Assembly (NCBI GenBank): GCA_003139255.1
Contig: PLIG01000092.1
Location: forward strand, 12,841 to 48,118
Origin: Acidimicrobiaceae bacterium
GTDB lineage: Bacteria > Actinomycetota > Acidimicrobiia > Acidimicrobiales > UBA8190
Length of the DNA: 35,278 bases
Direction of reading: 5' to 3'
Of the stretch, positions 20,076 to 34,992 are shown in pieces (position 1 is the first letter of the stretch; each line of letters begins with the position of its first letter). Made by a program: the position numbers and the translations under genes. The notes under the pieces were generated by a model. It searched no databases, was not told where the DNA came from, and was given only the letters and a program-made list of their open reading frames with translations.

Positions 20076-21080
20076 TCAAGATCGACGCTGGTACTTACTC
20101 TCTACGTACTCATCGACCCACACGCGGGTACTGCGCCACTGGCCGTCGGGGCCTTTCTGCCCCCTGAGCCGCCCCCGCTCGATCGCCGCCCGTAGCGTGA
20201 ACACGCTCTGCTTCTTCGTAGCCAATGCAGCCAGGGGAACCAACCGATGTAGTCCTGTTACCGCCGGCACCACAAAGCGGTAGAGGTTGTCGGTGACGGC
20301 GCGGGCGATCAGTTCGCCGAGGGGGCCGGGATCCCCACTGTCGGCCTTTCTCAGCGCACCGAGGTACCTGTTGCGATCGCGGGTGTAGATCACGGCGGGC
20401 GGGTAGCCAAGACGCACCAGGAGCAGGTTCATGAGGAGGCGTCCCGTGCGGCCATTGCCGTCGAGGAACGGATGGATCCTCTCGAAGGCTCCGTGCGCTG
20501 TGGCGACCGATTCGACAGGGTTGGCGCCGGCGCCGGCGCCGAGCGACCTGACCCAGTCAATCATGGCGGCGTCCACCTCGACCCACGATGGCGGGATCAT
20601 CCCGCCGGGGAAGGGTTGGATGTCGTGGCGCCGGAAGTTTCCGGGCCCCTCCAGGGGCCCGGCATTGGGATGGGGGGCGACGCCCCACATCGGGCCGAGC
20701 GCCAGCTGGTGAACGTGACGGACCTCGGTCAGCGTGAGAGGCGCCTCTGAGGCCCAGTCGCCCGGCTCGAGGGCCTGTCCGTATACCCACTTGGCAGCCT
20801 CGGCGTAGCCGGTCACCTCCATATATTCCTTGAGCTCCTTGTTCCCGACGGCCCGGCCCTCAGCCAGCAGGGCCTCAACTTGCTGGATGACCAGGGTGTT
20901 GCCCTCCAACGCCGTGGAGTGGTGGGCCTCCTGGTGCCAGATCGAGGTCCAGATGCCCTCTGCCTCGGTTGGCGACGGCAGGCCGCCCATGCGTTCACGA
21001 AGCTCGGTGATGGCCTCCTCCAGCCGTTGGTAGACCAGTTGTCGGGTTGGGCGGCCCCGCTGAGATTTGTTGTGCTCCAC
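20076..21080 (-). CDS. Fic-domain AMP transferase, class II (self-inhibited)
   Basis: Fic proteins transfer AMP (or other phosphoryl groups) to protein hydroxyls. The catalytic motif HPFLDGNGR is at residues 203-211, and the inhibitory helix motif S-x3-E-G (S55-G60, STALEGN) lies N-terminal, the class II arrangement in which the glutamate blocks ATP binding in cis. A flap region (GPGNFRRHDIQPF) precedes the core. The C-terminal ~70 residues (ALATKKQSVFTLRAAIERG) look like a winged-helix module, common in this class. It is 334 residues from GTG 21080; the start lies inside an inverted repeat that may be an autoregulatory operator. No separate antitoxin gene is adjacent, as expected for class II. 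The target is unknown. Confidence 0.88.
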   Translation of the reverse strand: MEHNKSQRGRPTRQLVYQRLEEAITELRERMGGLPSPTEAEGIWTSIWHQEAHHSTALEGNTLVIQQVEALLAEGRAVGNKELKEYMEVTGYAEAAKWVYGQALEPGDWASEAPLTLTEVRHVHQLALGPMWGVAPHPNAGPLEGPGNFRRHDIQPFPGGMIPPSWVEVDAAMIDWVRSLGAGAGANPVESVATAHGAFERIHPFLDGNGRTGRLLMNLLLVRLGYPPAVIYTRDRNRYLGALRKADSGDPGPLGELIARAVTDNLYRFVVPAVTGLHRLVPLAALATKKQSVFTLRAAIERGRLRGQKGPDGQWRSTRVWVDEYVESKYQRRS

Positions 21081-21969: not shown

Positions 21970-24168
21970 ATGAACGCGAAATACGTGACGCGCGCCGCCG
22001 CCGGCACCGTCGATTTTGGTTGGCGCCTCCACGGCCGACCCACGACGATGCCGCCCGACCATTCCTTCGAACTGGCAGCAGCCAAGCCTGACAGCTCCTT
22101 CCTCGCACCCTACTGTCGGGATCTCGCAGGCCTTCGGTCCTGCTTGCAGTGCGGAGTCTGTACCGCTACGTGTGATCTGGCCGGCGACGACGGCCGGTTC
22201 CCTCGGCGGCAGATCACTTTTGTTCGCCTCGGGCTGGAGGACAGGCTCGTCAGCGACCCGGACATCTGGCATTGCTACGGCTGCACCGAGTGCTCCGCCC
22301 GGTGCCCTTCAGGTGTGAATCCGGCCGGTGTCATGGGAGCGCTCAGGCAGTTCGCCACCGAACGCTACGCGTACCCGCGGTCGGTCGCGCGTGTCGTTAA
22401 CGGGGCGCGATCGTTCTGGCTCGTCTACGTCGGTGCCGCCGCGCTCTTGTCCGTCCTGGTCGCAGCGACCGGAGCGTTCAACCCCGGCCCCGGGCCACCG
22501 CGGTACGCGGGCATGCTGCCCAATCGGGCTCTCGTACCGTTCTTCTCGGTCTTCACGATCTTGCCGATAGTCGCGGTGGCCATAGGCGCCACGAGAGCCT
22601 GGAGCGCTTGGTACGGGTCGCCGCTGCGGGCCGCCGCGAGGCCTCGGATCTTTTGGCGGGCCCTGCGGCTCGGCATTGCCGAGATCTTGGCGCACCGCAG
22701 GTTCTCCTCGTGCAAGGAGCGTCGACTCAGGCCCTGGGCCCACGGGGCGGTCCTCTATGGCTTTTTCGGCCTTCTGGTCGTCTCTTGCGCGCTGGGGTTG
22801 CTCGTGCTCACCGGCCGGCCTTACCCGGTCCCGATGTCCGATCCGTTCAAGGTGTTGGGCAATGTCTCGGGTGCTCTGCTGGTAGTGGGCGCCTCCTATT
22901 TCTTGCTCCTGCGGGTCGTCGACTCGTTGAAAGGCCACGCCGGCGCGGTCTTTGACTGGAGCTTCCTCTGCAACGTGCTGCTGGTGACGCTCACAGGCGT
23001 CGGAGCGGAGGCGTTTCGTGTCACGAACGCCAGGACCCTTGCGTATCCCGTCTACTTCGTTCACTTGGTGCTCGTATTGGTCCTGATTGTCACGCTGCCC
23101 TACACCAAGCTCGCTCATGGTGTGTACCGGGTGATGGCGGTGGTGGGTCAGCGGTACGAAGAGCTCGTGGGAGAGGAACGATCCCTCGGGCCCCGTGCAG
23201 CAGCACACGATCAGTCGCTACGGACAAAGACAGCCGAGCCGCCCGTTGCGCCAGAGCACCTCGTGGAGTTGGGTCACCGCGAACTGGCCGCCTACTCGGA
23301 CACCGAGCTCAGCGCGGCCTACTACATGCTGCGTGACGCGACCGAGCCCAGCGCAAGCGGGCAGCACTACCCGAACATCAAGCGGATCTTCGGCACGCCG
23401 TTCGAGCGCGAAAAGGACAGACGGGAGGTGAAGGCCCTCCTGAGCGGACCAAGCACACCTGAGTGGCAGGACTGGTACGAGAAGGCCGCCGAACGGCCCT
23501 GCACCTGGTGGATCGAGAACCACCTTGTAGCCCGCCATGCCCTTTCTCCGTGCACCTCCTGTGGCATGTGCACGTCTGTGTGCCCGGCGGCCGAGTACTA
23601 CGAGGAGTACGACCCGCGGTGCATAGTCGACGTGGCGCTCTCGGGGAACGAGGAACGGCTTGTCGAACTTCTCCAGTCCGACTTCCTCTGGTACTGCGTG
23701 CAGTGTGGCTCGTGCAATTCGCGCTGCCCGATGGAGATAGACATCATGAGCCTCATAACCTCGCTTCGCTGTCTCGCGCAGATTAAGGGCTACCACCTGA
23801 AGAGCGTGCGCGGCAGACAGCAGTACGCCGGCCGGCACTTGTGGGGCGCCAACCTCTGGAACCGGGCATGTAGTTTGTACTTCCGCAACGGCGATCCGAT
23901 CGATCATCCTGACTTTGGCCCTCGGTACGCACGCTGGCAGGCGGAGCTGGAGGATCAATTCGTCCGCTTGGGCGCCCAGCCCGACACGGACGGGACCTTC
24001 GCTGGCCGCAAGGTGGCCCCGGCGACACTTGACGAATTGCGCAGCTGCATCCGCGGTGGGGGGACCTTGTTTCTCTGGAACAAGGTCGAGGAGCACGCGG
24101 CCGCAGATGCCAAGAGGCTCGGTCTCGACCTCGATGAGTACTACGACAAGGTGAGAACAGAAGGATGA
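21970..24168 (+). CDS. HdrC-cytochrome b-HdrC fusion (QmoC/DsrMK-like membrane electron-transfer subunit)
   Basis: A ~732-residue fusion. Part 1 (residues ~45-135) is HdrC-like, with two CxxCxxCxxxC sets: C58-C61-C64-C68 and C102-C105-C108-C112. Part 2 (~148-390) has about six hydrophobic spans with histidines suited to b-heme ligation (H258, H365, H383), as in QmoC, HdrE or DsrM. Part 3 (~430-620) is a second HdrC-like module with C528-C531-C534-C538 and C576-C579-C582-C586. It should move electrons between the quinone pool and four [4Fe-4S] clusters. The start is uncertain: ATG 21970 is used, ATG 22048 would put the first Cys near residue 32 as in HdrC, and TTG 21886 is possible. It is the first gene of a tight three-gene operon (4-nt gap to the next). 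The double HdrC plus cytochrome order is one I do not know from characterised complexes. Confidence 0.85.
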   Translation: MNAKYVTRAAAGTVDFGWRLHGRPTTMPPDHSFELAAAKPDSSFLAPYCRDLAGLRSCLQCGVCTATCDLAGDDGRFPRRQITFVRLGLEDRLVSDPDIWHCYGCTECSARCPSGVNPAGVMGALRQFATERYAYPRSVARVVNGARSFWLVYVGAAALLSVLVAATGAFNPGPGPPRYAGMLPNRALVPFFSVFTILPIVAVAIGATRAWSAWYGSPLRAAARPRIFWRALRLGIAEILAHRRFSSCKERRLRPWAHGAVLYGFFGLLVVSCALGLLVLTGRPYPVPMSDPFKVLGNVSGALLVVGASYFLLLRVVDSLKGHAGAVFDWSFLCNVLLVTLTGVGAEAFRVTNARTLAYPVYFVHLVLVLVLIVTLPYTKLAHGVYRVMAVVGQRYEELVGEERSLGPRAAAHDQSLRTKTAEPPVAPEHLVELGHRELAAYSDTELSAAYYMLRDATEPSASGQHYPNIKRIFGTPFEREKDRREVKALLSGPSTPEWQDWYEKAAERPCTWWIENHLVARHALSPCTSCGMCTSVCPAAEYYEEYDPRCIVDVALSGNEERLVELLQSDFLWYCVQCGSCNSRCPMEIDIMSLITSLRCLAQIKGYHLKSVRGRQQYAGRHLWGANLWNRACSLYFRNGDPIDHPDFGPRYARWQAELEDQFVRLGAQPDTDGTFAGRKVAPATLDELRSCIRGGGTLFLWNKVEEHAAADAKRLGLDLDEYYDKVRTEG

Positions 24169-24172
24169 CTCG

Positions 24173-25219
24173 ATGAACCTCCCGCCGATCACGACACGCC
24201 GCTACGTGAAACCGATACCCGACGACGGCTATTACCTCACGCCGAGTTGCGTCCTCGGCGTGTTTAGTCCCGCCACCGAGCCGCTCGTCGCTCGTCTCTA
24301 CGATCTTCTGGGGCGCCGCTGGGCCATGGGCGGCATCGGACCGGAGTCGCAAAACACGTGCTGTTCCGGCATCGCTACGCATGGAAACGTCTTCACGATC
24401 GAGAGCTCGCTGCTCGTCGTGGCGCGCCTGTGGTCACTGTGCGCCGAAGCCGGATTCACGAACATAACCACCGCCTGCGTCACGTCGTTCGCTGTCCATA
24501 ACGAGTGCATCGAGTTGCTCCACAAGGAGCCCGGGCTGGCGAAGAAGGTGGACCGCGTCCTCGTCGAGAGCTGCGGCCGGGGGCTCGTCGTGCCCGAAAA
24601 CATCGTGCACTGCTGTGACGTCATCTACCGCTACCGCTCCGAGCTCGCCAGCTCGATGAAGTACCGCCTGGTCGACGCCGCGACCGGCCGTCCCCTGAAG
24701 GTGGTCGACCACGTAGGTTGCCATTACAACAAGCTGTTCCCTCGGAAGTCGGTTGGCGGAACCGAGTATTGCGACGTGCTGACGGCGATGATCCGTGAAT
24801 GGGGTGGCGAGGAGGTGGACTATCCCGAGCGTCGCCACTGCTGCGGCATGGGCTTCCGTCAGTGCATGATCCGCCCGAACCGCGGCTTCACAGTGGCTTG
24901 CGTTCGCAAGAAGCTTGAGAGCATGGCCCCCTATGAACCAGATCTGATGCTCACGAATTGCCCGGGTTGCCTCCATGTCCTCGACCATGAGCAATGGGCT
25001 GTGAACGAGCTCACAGGCGCCGATCACCGGGTGCCGGTTCTCAACTATGCAGAGCTCGCCGGTCTTCTGCTCGGTTGGGACCCCTATGAAGTCGTCGGCA
25101 TCCAGACCCACACCGTCCCGGTCGAGCCGTTCCTGGAACGAATCGGCATCCCCGACCCGGCGAGCCCTGCCTACCTGGAGGACCGGTCGTTTGCCGTCCT
25201 GGGGGGCGCGATCGGATGA
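24173..25219 (+). CDS. HdrB-like CCG-domain subunit (one incomplete cluster motif)
   Basis: HdrB holds the active site of heterodisulfide reductase, where two CCG motifs bind noncubane [4Fe-4S] clusters that cleave disulfides. Motif 2 here is complete: C183, C223-C224, C263-x2-C266 (TNCPGCLH). Motif 1 has C26, C63-C64 and C102, but the last cysteine of the expected C-x2-C is Ser105 (ACVTSF), so that cluster may be altered or lost. Product 348 residues. AGAAGGA lies upstream of ATG 24173, which is 4 nt after the fusion gene; its stop overlaps the next start (ATGA). In function it should pair with the second HdrC module of gene 1, since HdrB plus HdrC makes the DsrK/HdrD arrangement. The natural substrate is unknown. 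Confidence 0.87.
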   Translation: MNLPPITTRRYVKPIPDDGYYLTPSCVLGVFSPATEPLVARLYDLLGRRWAMGGIGPESQNTCCSGIATHGNVFTIESSLLVVARLWSLCAEAGFTNITTACVTSFAVHNECIELLHKEPGLAKKVDRVLVESCGRGLVVPENIVHCCDVIYRYRSELASSMKYRLVDAATGRPLKVVDHVGCHYNKLFPRKSVGGTEYCDVLTAMIREWGGEEVDYPERRHCCGMGFRQCMIRPNRGFTVACVRKKLESMAPYEPDLMLTNCPGCLHVLDHEQWAVNELTGADHRVPVLNYAELAGLLLGWDPYEVVGIQTHTVPVEPFLERIGIPDPASPAYLEDRSFAVLGGAIG

Positions 25220-26331
25220 ACGGCCCGACATTGGTGCTCGGCGGAGGAGTCACCGGCATGCACGTTGCGATCGCGCTCGCCGAGCTCGGACTCGGCTCGG
25301 TCCTCGTGGAGAAGAGCTCTCAGCTGGGCGGTCTGGTCCCTCGACTGTCACGTACGTTTCCGTTCTTCGACGACGACGGCTTCAACGACGGCGCAGAATT
25401 CGCCGGCCAGATCGAGGCCGAGATGGGTGCGAGGTCCGAGATAGACGTGCGTCTGGGCACCGTCCTGACGGGCGTTGAAGGGGAATTCCCTGAATTCCGA
25501 GCGACCTTCAGCGACAAGTCCCAGGAGATCGTCAGCACGATCGTCGTTGCCACCGGCTTCGAGCCGTTCAACCCCTACGAACTCGAGGAGTACGGCTACG
25601 GTCGCTACCCCAACGTGGTCACGGGTCCGGAGTTGGAATGGCTGCTCAACCCGCGTGGCCCGACCCGGGGCGAACTGAGGCGACCTTCGGACGACAAGCA
25701 CGTGGACCGCCTGGCGCTCATATTCTGCGTCGGTTCGCGCAACCGGCGGATCGGGGCGCCCTTCTGCTCGCGCATCTGTTGTTCGTACAGCACCAAGCAG
25801 GCCCTAACCGTGCTCGGTCGGCACCCCACGGCAGAGATCACCTGTTTCTACATGGACATCCGAACCTACGACCGTGGGTTCGAGGAGATGTACTCGATGG
25901 CCCAGGAACGGGGGATCCGCTACATCCGTGGACGGGTGTCGGGATGCAAGGAGCTGCCCGGTGGCGACATCGTCGTGCGTGCCGAGAACACCCTTGTCCA
26001 GAAGATCTTCTCGAGCTCGTTCGACATGGTCTCGCTCTCCACCGGGATGCGACCGTGCAAGGACGTCGAGCAGCTGGCTCGCGTGCTGCGCATCGGGCGA
26101 GTCCCGGACGGGTTCTTCGCAAACCCGGCTTGGTTCCACCACCCGCACGACTCGACTCGCGAGGGCGTCTTCGTCGCCGGATGCGCGATGGGGGCGAAGC
26201 CGATCCGCAATTGCATCGTGGACGGTAGTGCGGTGGCCGCACGCATAGCGGGGCTGCTGAGGCGCGAGGGTGCGACATCGGGCCCGGTGAGGGATGCCAA
26301 CCAGTCATCTCGACCGGTTGCCACAAGGTGA
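25216..26331 (+). CDS. HdrA/QmoA-like FAD and Fe-S subunit
   Basis: A 371-residue flavoprotein. FAD-binding segments: LGGGVTGMHVAIALAELG at the N terminus, VVATGFEPF near residue 112, and GVFVAGCAMGAKPI near the C terminus. The HdrA signature cysteine set is present in FCVGSRNRRIGAPFCSRICC: C171, C184, C188-C189, binding one [4Fe-4S] cluster. The extra ferredoxin domains of full-length methanogen HdrA are missing, so the size and layout match QmoA. Translation is coupled to hdrB through a 4-nt overlap. It may receive or bifurcate electrons within the complex; bifurcation is speculative because no partner dehydrogenase (mvhD, fdh, frh) is visible. Confidence 0.86.
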   Translation: MNGPTLVLGGGVTGMHVAIALAELGLGSVLVEKSSQLGGLVPRLSRTFPFFDDDGFNDGAEFAGQIEAEMGARSEIDVRLGTVLTGVEGEFPEFRATFSDKSQEIVSTIVVATGFEPFNPYELEEYGYGRYPNVVTGPELEWLLNPRGPTRGELRRPSDDKHVDRLALIFCVGSRNRRIGAPFCSRICCSYSTKQALTVLGRHPTAEITCFYMDIRTYDRGFEEMYSMAQERGIRYIRGRVSGCKELPGGDIVVRAENTLVQKIFSSSFDMVSLSTGMRPCKDVEQLARVLRIGRVPDGFFANPAWFHHPHDSTREGVFVAGCAMGAKPIRNCIVDGSAVAARIAGLLRREGATSGPVRDANQSSRPVATR

Positions 26332-26876: not shown

Positions 26877-27402
26877 GAGATTGAGCCTTTCATTTCAGGC
26901 CCGATCTCAACAGGAGAAGTGGAAACGATCGGTGGGGCAGGTCAAACCGTCCAGAGGTAATGGTGAGGTTCTGGCCGTCAAAAGCGCCAATCGCACAGTT
27001 TCTCGAAGCTCGTGGATTGAACGTCAATCATTGGATCGCGAGTGGTGCGCGTGTTGCACGGACGCCGCGGAGAGGACGTCCTCAGGTACAGCAGTTCCAA
27101 CGATCTGACGCAGGCAGTCGTCGCGATATTGGGCGCATTTTCGGGGAGACCGAAGGTGGGCATGACTCTACGATTCCCGAGTTGACTCAAACCTTCGCCG
27201 CTGCATGAGATCTCAGGTTAACGGCAGTGCGAGAGACAGCGCGACAACCGCGAGGAACGTATGCGGGCGGCTCTAACCCGGTGGATGAGGGCGCCCTCGG
27301 CCCGAGAAAGTCTCGAGCTACGATGTGCCGAGTGGACATGCGGCCCTCGGTAGCGACGCTACGAGCCGCCTTCCGGCGCCCTCACCGAGCCCACTCATTC
27401 TC

Positions 27403-27889
27403 GTGAGTACGCGGGCCGACCCCATTACGCCCGACACAGAAGGAGCTGAGGAGCCGCTGCCGTTCGTCCCTCGGGTGTTCGGCGGCTGGCGCCCCATCTT
27501 CGTCTTTATCGTCTGCGTCGGGGGCGTCGGCGTGTCGATCTACTTGACGATCGTCCACTTCGAGCCGCAGGCGCTGGTCTGCACCACCAACAGCTTTATC
27601 TCCTGCGCGCCGGTGCTGCACAGCCCGCAGTCCGTCCTCTTTGGCATCCCGGTGCCCTTCTATGGCCTCTTCTGGTTCGTGTCGATGGGTTCGTGCTCAA
27701 CCTGTCGTCCATGTGGCGCACGACGAAGTGGTGGCTGCCGTGGGCCCGCGTGGTGTGGTCGGTGGTCGGAATGTGTTTCGTCTTCGACATGATCTACGAC
27801 GAACTCTTGTCATCAACAAACTGTGTGAATGGTGCACCACCGTCCACGTCTTCACCTTAGGAACGCGGGTCGTAGCGCCCTGGTGTTGA
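27403..27889 (+). pseudogene. Vitamin K epoxide reductase (VKOR) gene with two frameshifts
   Basis: VKOR homologues reoxidise DsbA-like thiol oxidants with quinone. From GTG 27403 the frame gives a membrane segment (FIVCVGGVGVSIYLTIVHF), the loop cysteines LVCTTNSFISC and FGIPVPFYGLFWFVSMG. The match then moves to a second frame (VLNLSSMWRTTKWWLP, SVVGMCFVFDMIYDE) and to a third (LVINKLCEWCTTVHVFT), which holds the CEWC active site. Two single-base losses, near 27693 and near 27807, explain this. The end (GTRVVAPWC) lacks the last membrane helix. Either a pseudogene or two assembly errors; the missing C terminus favours real decay. Confidence 0.75.
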
Positions 27890-28030
27890 TGCGCGACATG
27901 TGGCTCGAGGCAAGAGCGGAACGTCTATGTACAGTATGTATAGTGAGTATTTGTCTACACAGTGAGAAGTTGATCTATGTCCAGGCGGCATGACGGCTCT
28001 GTCGACGTCGAAGGTGCTCGGAGGTCTCCG

Positions 28031-28399
28031 ATGGTGGTGTGCGTACCTGTGATCCATGGGAACTCGATCGACCCACGGTGGGGTCGAGCTGAGCGGCTGG
28101 CGATCGCGGAGGTCGAGGCCGGGACGATCACCCGCTGGCAGGAGCTTGATGTCGCGTGGGGTACCGTGCGCAACACCGGCAGCGAACGCGCCCACCATGC
28201 ACGGGTGGCACGGTTCATCAAAGAGCATAATGTGGAGACCGTGCTTGCCCATCACATGGGCGACGACATGCAGCGCATACTCGGGAGGATGGGTGTGACC
28301 GTTCATCTCGGTGCCTCCGGAGACGCGCGGCAGGCTGTGATGGCGATCGCCCAGAAGGGCGATGGGCAGGAACCCTCCCAGGGCGTAAGCGATAGCTGA
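28031..28399 (+). CDS. NifX/NifB-type dinitrogenase iron-molybdenum cofactor family protein
   Basis: A 122-residue stand-alone domain of the Nitro_FeMo-Co family (NifX, NafY and archaeal homologues): MVVCVPV at the start, IDPRWGRAERLAIAEVEAG, then HHARVARFIKEHNVETVLA, HHMGDDMQRILGRMGV and LGASGDARQAV. Such proteins bind Fe-S or Fe-Mo clusters; many lie outside nif operons with unknown roles, as here. ATG 28031 has an ideal GGAGG 6 nt upstream and gives the usual length; ATG 27977 would add 18 unmatched residues. Upstream (27925-27950) is an AT-rich stretch with two near-identical 9-mers (tatgtacag, tatgtatag), a possible promoter or operator. Confidence 0.8.
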   Translation: MVVCVPVIHGNSIDPRWGRAERLAIAEVEAGTITRWQELDVAWGTVRNTGSERAHHARVARFIKEHNVETVLAHHMGDDMQRILGRMGVTVHLGASGDARQAVMAIAQKGDGQEPSQGVSDS

Positions 28400-33291: not shown

Positions 33292-34992
33292 TTACGAAGT
33301 TGGCACAGCGACCGACTCTGCCTGAGCCTGAGCCCGCATCGATGCTGACCACGTCTGGTACCCGCCGTCGAGATTGCGTGCCTTGATCCCGAGTTCGCGC
33401 AACAGTGCAGTCGCGGTGTGCGCTCGTTGTCCAACCTCGCAGTAGACAACGACTGGTCCGTTGCCGAGCGCATCGAGGTGGTCTCGGAGCGAGTCGATCG
33501 GAACATTCCTCGACCCTGGGATCGCGCCTTCGGCGTACTCTTCTGCAGTACGCACGTCGAGAAGGGTCCATCCCTCTGTGACAAGCCCGTCGAGCTCGCG
33601 AGGGTCGACGACATCGCAGTCGCCGCTCAGCACGTTTTCGGCCATGTAGCCAATGAGGTTGACAGGGTCCTTGGCCGAGGAGAACGGTGGGGCGTACGCG
33701 AGTTCGAGGTCAGCAAGGCGATCGGCAGTGACGCCGCTCGCCATCGCAGTCGCGATCACATCGATCCGTTTGTCGACTCCATTGCGGCCGACGATCTGTG
33801 CACCGAGAATTCTTGCATCATTCGGATCAAAGATCAGCTTCATCGCCATCGGTGTCGCACCGGGGTAATAGGTCGCGTGGTCGAAGGGGTGTGAGTGGAT
33901 GGCCCGGAAGGGTCGGCCTGCCGTTCGCAGGCGCCGTTCGTTCCAGCCGACCGTTGCAGCAACGAGATCGAACACCCTCACTATTGCAGTCCCGAGGGAT
34001 GCGACTGCGTGCGAGGGTCGCCCGGCAATGTGGTCGGCCACCCGTCGACCCTGGCGATTGGCGATGTTCGCAAGTGCAATGAGCGAGGTCGCATGCGAGA
34101 CGGCGTCAGCCTTCTCAACGACATCACCAACGGCGTAAATGTCAGGATCGTTCGTCTGGTTCGCCTCGTTCACAGCGATACCACCGCTCGGTCCCAGCTC
34201 TAGACCCGCGAGTTCAGCGAACTGGACATCGGGTCGTACTCCGATGGAACCAATGACGAGGTCAGCAGGGAGGATCCGACCGTCGGCAAGGGTGACCGTT
34301 CGCTCCTGGACCGATGCAACCGTCGCTCGCGTCTCGACATGGACGCCGTGAGCAACAAGCTCGTCACTGACAAGGATGGCAAGCTCAGGATCGAGTGGCG
34401 GCAGCACCTGTGGGGTGGCCTCGACGATCGTGACGTCGATCCACTGGCCGACGAGGTTCTCGGCCATCTCAAGTCCGATGAACCCGGCACCGATCACGAC
34501 AGCCGTTGACGGTGCGATATCGACGTCCGAGGCGAGGCGAGCTGCATCTTCGACGGTCCGCAGCGTGCGGACCCTGTCGTACCCGGGGATAGGCGGGCGC
34601 ACTGGGGCAGCGCCCATGCTGAGTACGAGCTTGTCGTAGGCGATGACAGTCTCTACACCGGTGACGGTCGAACGTGTCGTGACGGTGTGACCCACCCGGT
34701 CAATAGCGACGACCTCGTCATTGATCCTGACGTCGAGTCGGAACCGGTCGAACAGCTGCTCCGGGGTCTGGAGCGTGAGGTCTTCTTCCTCTTCGATCAG
34801 GCCGCCGACGAAGTACGGCAAGCCGCAGTTGGCGAAGGAGACGTGACCAGACCGTTCAAAAACGGTGATGCTGACGTCAGCATCGAGGCGGCGAAGGCGA
34901 GCGGCCGTGGACATTCCGCCCGCGACCCCACCTACGATCACTACACGCTTGGTCAACTCAGGTGCTTCAGGAGTAGCAGCCATCGCCGTCAC
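33292..34992 (-). CDS. CoA-disulfide reductase / rhodanese fusion (FAD, NAD(P)H-dependent)
   Basis: A 566-residue flavoprotein of the CoADR-Rhd type. It opens with the FAD fold VVIVGGVAGGMSTAARLRRL, followed by the single redox cysteine C56 in SFANCGLPY, which forms a mixed disulfide with CoA. The NAD(P)H site is VVIGAGFIGLEMAENL, then DIYAVGDVVE, and a dimerisation domain with AKDPVNLIGYMAENVLSG. The last ~100 residues are a rhodanese domain (LLDVRTAEEYAEGAIPGS) with active Cys in VYCEVGQRAH. Characterised relatives reduce CoA disulfide, CoA persulfide or polysulfide. GTG 34992 overlaps the previous small ORF's stop (GTGA); ATG 34983 is the alternative. Confidence 0.93.
   Translation of the reverse strand: MTAMAATPEAPELTKRVVIVGGVAGGMSTAARLRRLDADVSITVFERSGHVSFANCGLPYFVGGLIEEEEDLTLQTPEQLFDRFRLDVRINDEVVAIDRVGHTVTTRSTVTGVETVIAYDKLVLSMGAAPVRPPIPGYDRVRTLRTVEDAARLASDVDIAPSTAVVIGAGFIGLEMAENLVGQWIDVTIVEATPQVLPPLDPELAILVSDELVAHGVHVETRATVASVQERTVTLADGRILPADLVIGSIGVRPDVQFAELAGLELGPSGGIAVNEANQTNDPDIYAVGDVVEKADAVSHATSLIALANIANRQGRRVADHIAGRPSHAVASLGTAIVRVFDLVAATVGWNERRLRTAGRPFRAIHSHPFDHATYYPGATPMAMKLIFDPNDARILGAQIVGRNGVDKRIDVIATAMASGVTADRLADLELAYAPPFSSAKDPVNLIGYMAENVLSGDCDVVDPRELDGLVTEGWTLLDVRTAEEYAEGAIPGSRNVPIDSLRDHLDALGNGPVVVYCEVGQRAHTATALLRELGIKARNLDGGYQTWSASMRAQAQAESVAVPTS

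Follow-up and report, generated by a model that had tools for sequence, protein, structure and literature searches.

A QmoC–HdrC fusion protein heads a compact Hdr-like operon with a predicted role in quinone-linked thiol or persulfide chemistry in the Acidimicrobiales

Results

Three genes at positions 21970–26331 form a compact Hdr-like operon within a 35,278-nucleotide (nt) stretch of an Acidimicrobiaceae genome, hereafter the window (GenBank assembly GCA_003139255.1, contig PLIG01000092.1, positions 12,841 to 48,118). Gene 1 (21970..24168, + strand) encodes a 732-amino acid (aa) fusion of a QmoC-like cytochrome b protein with HdrC, delineated using Pfam and NCBIfam models, a motif scan, alignments and AlphaFold, while gene 2 (24173..25219, +; 348 aa) encodes an HdrB and gene 3 (25216..26331, +; 371 aa) an HdrA flavoprotein without inserted ferredoxin domains, both assigned by Pfam, NCBIfam, alignment and tree. 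Genes 1 and 2 are spaced by 4 nt and genes 2 and 3 overlap in an ATGA; judging from this layout, genes 2 and 3 are translationally coupled behind gene 1. HdrB followed by HdrA stands behind the fused gene in the same order in two further genomes of the order (G618 and G767), which bears out the three-gene unit proposed in an earlier, model-generated reading of the letters alone (the original prediction).

Gene 1 is an uninterrupted open reading frame with zero internal stops, and its GC content at third codon positions is even along its length (0.72–0.85), with no compositional break. Four CxxCxxCxxxC motifs, at residues 58, 102, 528 and 576, lie two on either side of six hydrophobic spans (approximately residues 149–167, 187–205, 261–279, 297–316, 328–346 and 356–374), and as the number of spans is even, both iron-sulfur halves should face the same side of the membrane. 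The N-terminal motif pair (22132..22317, +; motif scan and NCBIfam) belongs to a ferredoxin-like domain with two [4Fe-4S] clusters (residues 55–116) and is followed by the six-span cytochrome b module (residues 149–374; 22414..23091, +), which was delimited by hydrophobicity, alignment and AlphaFold. Alignment of the fused proteins then outlines a linker of residues ~385–523 (23122-23538, +), carrying segments conserved across them, for example AAYYxLRD and YPNIKR, and no known domain. The C-terminal double [4Fe-4S] region (23539..23739, +; Pfam, NCBIfam and motif scan) opens a second HdrC half of residues 524–732, which includes a C-terminal extension of the type found in sHdrC1, the HdrC of the Hdr-like sulfur oxidation (sHdr) system; this extension aligns with those of sHdrC1 and cyanobacterial HdrC and has invariant residues in common with them. 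Pfam detects Fer4-type domains in each half, and the NCBIfam HdrC model covers residues 524–619. An AlphaFold model places helices at the same six spans, with predicted local distance difference test (pLDDT) values mostly of 70–90; its C-terminal half is of low confidence and does not support the second HdrC half, and Foldseek searches with the model returned weak HdrC and NarI matches at most. The proposed HdrC–cytochrome b–HdrC architecture is upheld by the motif scan, the spans and the NCBIfam QmoC and HdrC matches.

A QmoC-like identity of the N-terminal half, also part of the original prediction, is confirmed by the NCBIfam QmoC model, which matches residues 55–392 with E = 1e-86 and 291.5 bits, just short of the 300-bit cut-off, and by a tree of QmoC-like proteins, in which the fused proteins group together at 100/100 within QmoC. 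By the same model, fused homologues score 291 and 282 bits and true QmoC proteins of the same phylum 435–456 bits. All eight iron-sulfur cysteines of this half are kept and are conserved in 18–19 of 19 QmoC relatives. The haem-ligand histidines H258, H365 and H383 are conserved in the cytochrome b module together with C248, and H242 is present only in fused and true QmoC proteins. A weak match to TcuB (E = 2e-18) was also obtained; a TcuB identity was ruled out by the far stronger QmoC match and by two proteins from the same order that are TcuB by their own hidden Markov model and split off at 100/100 from the fused proteins and QmoC.

The fusion was surveyed in ~780 genomes in all, drawn from the window's family, its phylum, its order and the family of the first match; these genomes are drafts (the window's own has 237 contigs), and the in-depth survey was confined to one phylum. 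Full-length homologues of gene 1 occur in G618 (65% identity) and G767 (68%), two members of a single genus that shares the order but not the family of the window's genome, and a fused gene split between contigs occurs in a third genome, G768; of the genomes surveyed, these three and the window's own are the only carriers. A class-wide draw of 395 genomes queried with gene 2 gave no additional close relative, and a search of genome contigs with gene 1 as query returned one unrelated locus only. That gene 1 is an assembly join of two genes, a concern raised with the original prediction, is excluded because the full-length fusion recurs at 65–68% identity in two independent genomes, with the same gene order and a conserved linker between cytochrome b and HdrC. 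The HdrC–cytochrome b–HdrC fusion is thus real, rare and found across two families. One locus in G768 (L098:1-2565; contig G768:C237) begins with the last 73 residues of gene 1, followed by an intact gene 2, with gene 3 not detected; it is possibly a decayed copy or an assembly chimera, and its apparent join of gene 2 to two genes of a TusA/DsrE2 cluster was set aside because gene 1 is truncated and gene 3 undetected.

As expected from the original prediction, gene 2 is a CCG protein, with a single PF02754 domain in Pfam and an HdrB assignment in NCBIfam. Its C-terminal CCG site is complete (C183, C223/C224, C263 and C266), while the N-terminal site (C26, C63/C64 and C102) ends in CVTS in place of CxxC, its last cysteine replaced as in sHdrB1; the pair of complete sites of methanogen-type HdrB was not found. 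Phylogenetically, gene 2 and three other HdrB proteins from fused loci form a clade at 100/100 that is sister to the HdrB1 of Picosynechococcus (95/89), and the two together are sister to sHdrB1 (99/99), with methanogen HdrB apart. Gene 2 is therefore placed as sister to the sHdrB1 clade and not within it.

Gene 3 has an FAD/NAD-type domain in Pfam, a flavin adenine dinucleotide (FAD) motif and an HdrA assignment in NCBIfam, and the predicted set C171/C184/C188/C189 proved invariant among its relatives. With 371 aa and no ferredoxin domains it departs from methanogen-type HdrA (~650 aa, with ferredoxin domains), and the alignment shows that the ferredoxin insert of QmoA is absent as well. The sole solved relative that matches gene 3 near full length in one stretch is the sHdrA structure 6TJR; methanogen HdrA outscores it, but over the core only. 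In the HdrA tree, gene 3 falls outside the QmoA/QmoB clade, and forcing it together with QmoA was marginally rejected by the approximately unbiased (AU) test (p-AU 0.048); placements with sHdrA (p-AU 0.69) and with methanogen HdrA (p-AU 0.43) were not rejected. The lacking insert, the tree position and, marginally, the AU test rule out gene 3 as QmoA, so the claim that the operon is built around one QmoA is not supported. Nor is the DsrMK-like module ascribed to it: HdrB and the second HdrC side with sHdrB1 and sHdrC1, and the two are unfused.

Targeted searches of the window's genome (91% complete, 0.6% contamination) found no PF01077 sulfite reductase (dsrAB), no AprA and no PF01747 ATP sulfurylase (sat). 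The statement that no dsr or apr genes lie nearby thus extends to the whole assembly. The best LbpA match (30%) is GcvH-like and lies on another contig; the LbpA of relatives match at 43–54%. HdrA searches returned gene 3 and the copies in a second Hdr cluster only, and CCG searches returned gene 2, the HdrB of that cluster and one 736-aa protein, with no HdrC2B2. On these CCG, HdrA and LbpA searches, a canonical sHdr system was not found in the window's own genome. G618 holds the fusion and, in addition, a canonical sHdr-LbpA locus (C2B2-LplA-LbpA-LipS), so the two systems are separate. PF01077 and PF01747 also went undetected in G618, G767 and G768, and a dependence on reduced sulfur is possible in all four genomes.

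The original prediction overlooked a 566-aa coenzyme A (CoA)-disulfide reductase-rhodanese fusion at 33292..34992 (−). This gene lies near the fused gene in 4/4 fusion genomes and is the sole sulfur gene near the fusion that all four share. In G767 and G768, a SufS-like aminotransferase is divergent from the fused gene, accompanied by a CsoR-family repressor. Further sulfur genes lie just past the window's right end and so escaped the prediction's picture of the locus. There, on the same contig, a second cluster encodes DsrE2, TusA, DsrE, TusA, MvhD, an HdrA with a GltD-like insert, a QmoB-like HdrA, HdrC and HdrB (L055:915-8900 = C97:48914-56899, −), an NAD(P)H-capable Hdr assembly beside sulfane-sulfur carriers. 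It is 10 kb from the trio and on the opposite strand, with the QmoB-like HdrA ~12 kb away; qmoB and mvhD, for which a genome-wide check had been proposed, are missing from the operon and have counterparts in this cluster. Three relatives from the same order (G257, G527 and G696) have TusA, DsrE2, HdrA-GltD, QmoB-like and unfused QmoC-like proteins in one cluster, and the HdrA-GltD and QmoB-like proteins of the window's genome group with theirs in a tree. Where those relatives have QmoC, the second cluster here has a bare HdrC and HdrB, and the only QmoC detected in the genome is the one within gene 1. A conserved linkage of the trio to TusA/DsrE2 was not upheld, as no DsrE2 was found in G767 and those of G618 and G768 are of another type (35–36% identity).

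Other observations concern the surroundings of these loci. The trio is flanked by genes for a Fic-family protein (20076-21080, −), a VKOR-family protein (27325-27792, +) and a PF02579 (dinitrogenase iron-molybdenum cofactor) protein (27977-28399, +), and in G767 a 1028-aa dimethyl sulfoxide (DMSO)-reductase-family molybdoenzyme lies downstream of the fused trio (L096:12717-15803). Past the window's right end, the contig also encodes a helix-turn-helix regulator and a membrane protein that fits no family; the latter (L055:8929-9522) has a conserved SLPSKASAGQ-like segment and no Pfam or NCBIfam match, and within this order its homologues (L057:113-1405, duplicated; L058:3148-3939; L098:4778-5419) recur next to clusters of sHdr or DsrE2 genes. 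Unfused TusA-DsrE2-HdrA/GltD-QmoB-QmoC clusters in genomes of this order (L067, L081 and L082) resemble the type II Qmo described without dsr or apr, and a single locus in a genome of the same family (L057; G010:C313:10000-29000) combines AprB, AprA and two Qmo-like HdrA with an HdrC fused to HdrB and a complete sHdr-LbpA-LipS set.

Discussion

We interpret the trio, with moderate confidence, as a membrane-bound thiol/persulfide:quinone oxidoreductase, an sHdrC1-B1-A-like unit in which HdrC is fused to QmoC. The membrane-bound quinone-thiol chemistry of the original prediction is in this respect supported. Because HdrB is the sister group of sHdrB1, HdrC has the sHdrC1-type extension and gene 3 lies outside QmoA, the three genes are best read as an sHdrC1-B1-A-like unit with QmoC fused on, and not as a QmoA/DsrMK hybrid.

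From the anatomy of the proteins, the roles of HdrA, HdrB and HdrC in complexes of the 5ODC type and that of QmoC as a quinone module, we infer complex formation, an electron order and a substrate, and from the genomic context a direction. The substrate, a thiol or sulfane sulfur such as a persulfide bound to TusA, DsrE2 or CoA, would be handled at the CCG site of HdrB and/or at the FAD of HdrA beside the C171/C184/C188/C189 cluster. Electrons would then travel via the C-terminal pair of [4Fe-4S] clusters in gene 1, whose HdrC half would act as a bridge as in Hdr enzymes, to the two N-terminal clusters, and on through haem b to menaquinone in the six-span domain. Quinone would thereby serve as the acceptor for the oxidation of cytoplasmic sulfane sulfur or thiols, the most likely direction, favoured because of the sulfane-sulfur carriers on the contig and the kinship with sHdr. 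Quinone as the acceptor of Hdr-like sulfur oxidation has been proposed earlier (PMC6335251).

QmoABC, QmoAB-HdrBC, type II Qmo, HdrDE, DsrMK and sHdr-LbpA have all been described (PMC6067878, PMC10504309, PMC6335251, PMC9012536). The trio shares with sHdr (hdrC1B1A-hyp-hdrC2B2 with LbpA; Hyphomicrobium, Acidithiobacillus and Aquifex) the order HdrC-HdrB-HdrA, the extended HdrC, a small HdrA without ferredoxin insert and an HdrB that groups as sister of sHdrB1 and resembles it in its incomplete N-terminal site, but its HdrC is fused to QmoC, its HdrB stands outside the sHdrB1 clade, its operon lacks hyp and C2B2, and LbpA was not found in the genome. The likeness to QmoABC lies in the N-terminal half of gene 1, with its conserved histidines and two [4Fe-4S] clusters; unlike QmoABC, the trio has neither QmoA nor QmoB in the operon and no AprAB detected in the genome, scores just under the QmoC cut-off, and carries an additional HdrC half and HdrB. 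Qmo and Hdr parts are likewise mixed in the QmoAB-HdrBC of Gram-positive sulfate reducers and in type II Qmo, the latter of which also occurs without dsr or apr; in the alternative Qmo with HdrBC in place of QmoC, a loss of membrane coupling has been assumed (PMC10504309). In the trio, by contrast, QmoC and HdrC form a single polypeptide, which would keep that coupling. HdrDE and DsrMK also couple a CCG iron-sulfur protein to cytochrome b, but there HdrC and HdrB are fused and cytochrome b is separate, whereas in the trio HdrC-type domains flank cytochrome b in one chain, HdrB is separate and a flavin-containing HdrA is added.

The nearest named unfused trio, with the same gene order (HdrB 41%, HdrC 34% and HdrA 34% identity), belongs to a six-gene operon, hdrC-hdrB-hdrA-hdrC'-hdrB'-SQR-like, of Picosynechococcus sp. 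PCC 7003 (NZ_CP016476.1, 185219-190959; L095:11146-16886), located on a plasmid of an oxygenic phototroph. Instead of a cytochrome b fusion, it has a QmoC/SdhB-like HdrC, an SdhE-like HdrB and a flavoprotein resembling type III sulfide:quinone oxidoreductase (SQR), and its gene content thus ties the trio, independently, to components of quinone-reactive type. The genes hdrA2B2C2, without an assigned role, have been reported from a cyanobacterium that tolerates sulfide (PMC8002359). In the open-licence papers listed, neither a description of an HdrC–cytochrome b–HdrC fusion nor a paper treating both sHdr and QmoC was found; each part of the trio comes from a known family, while the combination appears undescribed.

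Several points weigh against a thiol/persulfide:quinone oxidoreductase of sHdr kinship. The function of the trio is a prediction from sequence, gene 1 narrowly misses the curated QmoC cut-off, and the placement of gene 3 within the HdrA family is unsettled in the free tree. The tie to TusA/DsrE2 is not conserved, since the cluster is 10 kb off and no DsrE2 was found in G767. CoA-disulfide reductase relatives also function in thiol homeostasis, so the neighbourhood leaves the direction unfixed, and no sulfite-handling enzyme was identified. A canonical sHdr system depends on LbpA and has C2B2 and a hyp subunit as well; as none of the three was found here, complete oxidation to sulfite is doubtful, and oxidation of persulfides or thiols is the more modest claim.

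Alternatively, the trio could provide the membrane part of a bigger assembly that also includes the second Hdr cluster (MvhD, HdrA-GltD-like, QmoB-like, HdrC and HdrB). This assembly would connect NAD(P)H or ferredoxin with a sulfur carrier and menaquinone, and would take the place of the type II-like QmoABC-TusA-DsrE2 clusters of relatives. The single-cluster arrangement in G257, G527 and G696, the grouping of the genome's own HdrA-GltD and QmoB-like proteins with theirs, and a second cluster with bare HdrC and HdrB in a genome where QmoC was detected solely within gene 1 all speak for it; yet 10 kb separates the trio from the second cluster, which lies on the opposite strand, the fused N-terminal half is nearer to true QmoC proteins from other families than to those in the relatives' clusters, no close DsrE2 of the second cluster's type was found in the other three carriers (35–36% or none), and the trio already has its own HdrA and HdrB. 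We consider such an assembly unlikely. Unlikely as well, and slightly more so, is a role in thiol-redox homeostasis, in which the quinone pool would oxidize or reduce CoA disulfide or a mycothiol mixed disulfide, in the manner of HdrDE with a soluble thiol, and sulfane sulfur would not be involved. CoA-disulfide reductase-rhodanese, which no other sulfur gene matches in lying close to the fusion in each of the four genomes, would fit this role, as would the complete C-terminal CCG site of gene 2 and the disulfide-reducing chemistry of methanogen HdrB; it conflicts with the kinship of HdrB and HdrC on the sulfur-oxidation side, with the abundance of sulfane-sulfur carriers on the contig and with the presence of an NAD(P)H-dependent CoA-disulfide reductase, which would render a quinone-linked one redundant.

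Very little speaks for a QmoC-type module acting on an organic substrate, such as TcuB of tricarballylate oxidation or an LdhH/GlcF-type dehydrogenase, in a merely coincidental sulfur context: domains are common to QmoC, TcuB and GlpC/GlcF, and the weak TcuB match is consistent with it, but the QmoC match is far stronger, genuine TcuB of the same order is separated by tree and model, and the operon has no dehydrogenase gene. A chance join or assembly artefact, conceivable in a draft of 237 contigs, has a negligible probability given the full-length fusions in two genomes of another family, their shared gene order and linker, and the flat composition of gene 1.

The destination of the electrons in Hdr-like sulfur oxidation is unsettled, and published models send them either through LbpA to NADH or into the quinol pool (PMC6335251). 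The fusion of QmoC with an sHdrC1-like HdrC would allow quinone coupling to be tested directly, and as a single operon of three genes the trio would be a compact construct for biochemistry. More tentatively than the thiol/persulfide:quinone oxidoreductase itself, we suggest that the trio might be a self-contained respiratory complex that oxidizes cytoplasmic persulfides or sulfane sulfur and hands the electrons directly to quinone, without LbpA, DsrAB, AprAB or Sat, so that an HdrC with its own cytochrome b would constitute a third wiring of Hdr-type sulfur chemistry. The trio would add sulfur-redox capacity to a genome that a marker survey of dsrAB, aprA, sat and LbpA would score as having none, and would wire cellular sulfur chemistry straight into the respiratory chain.

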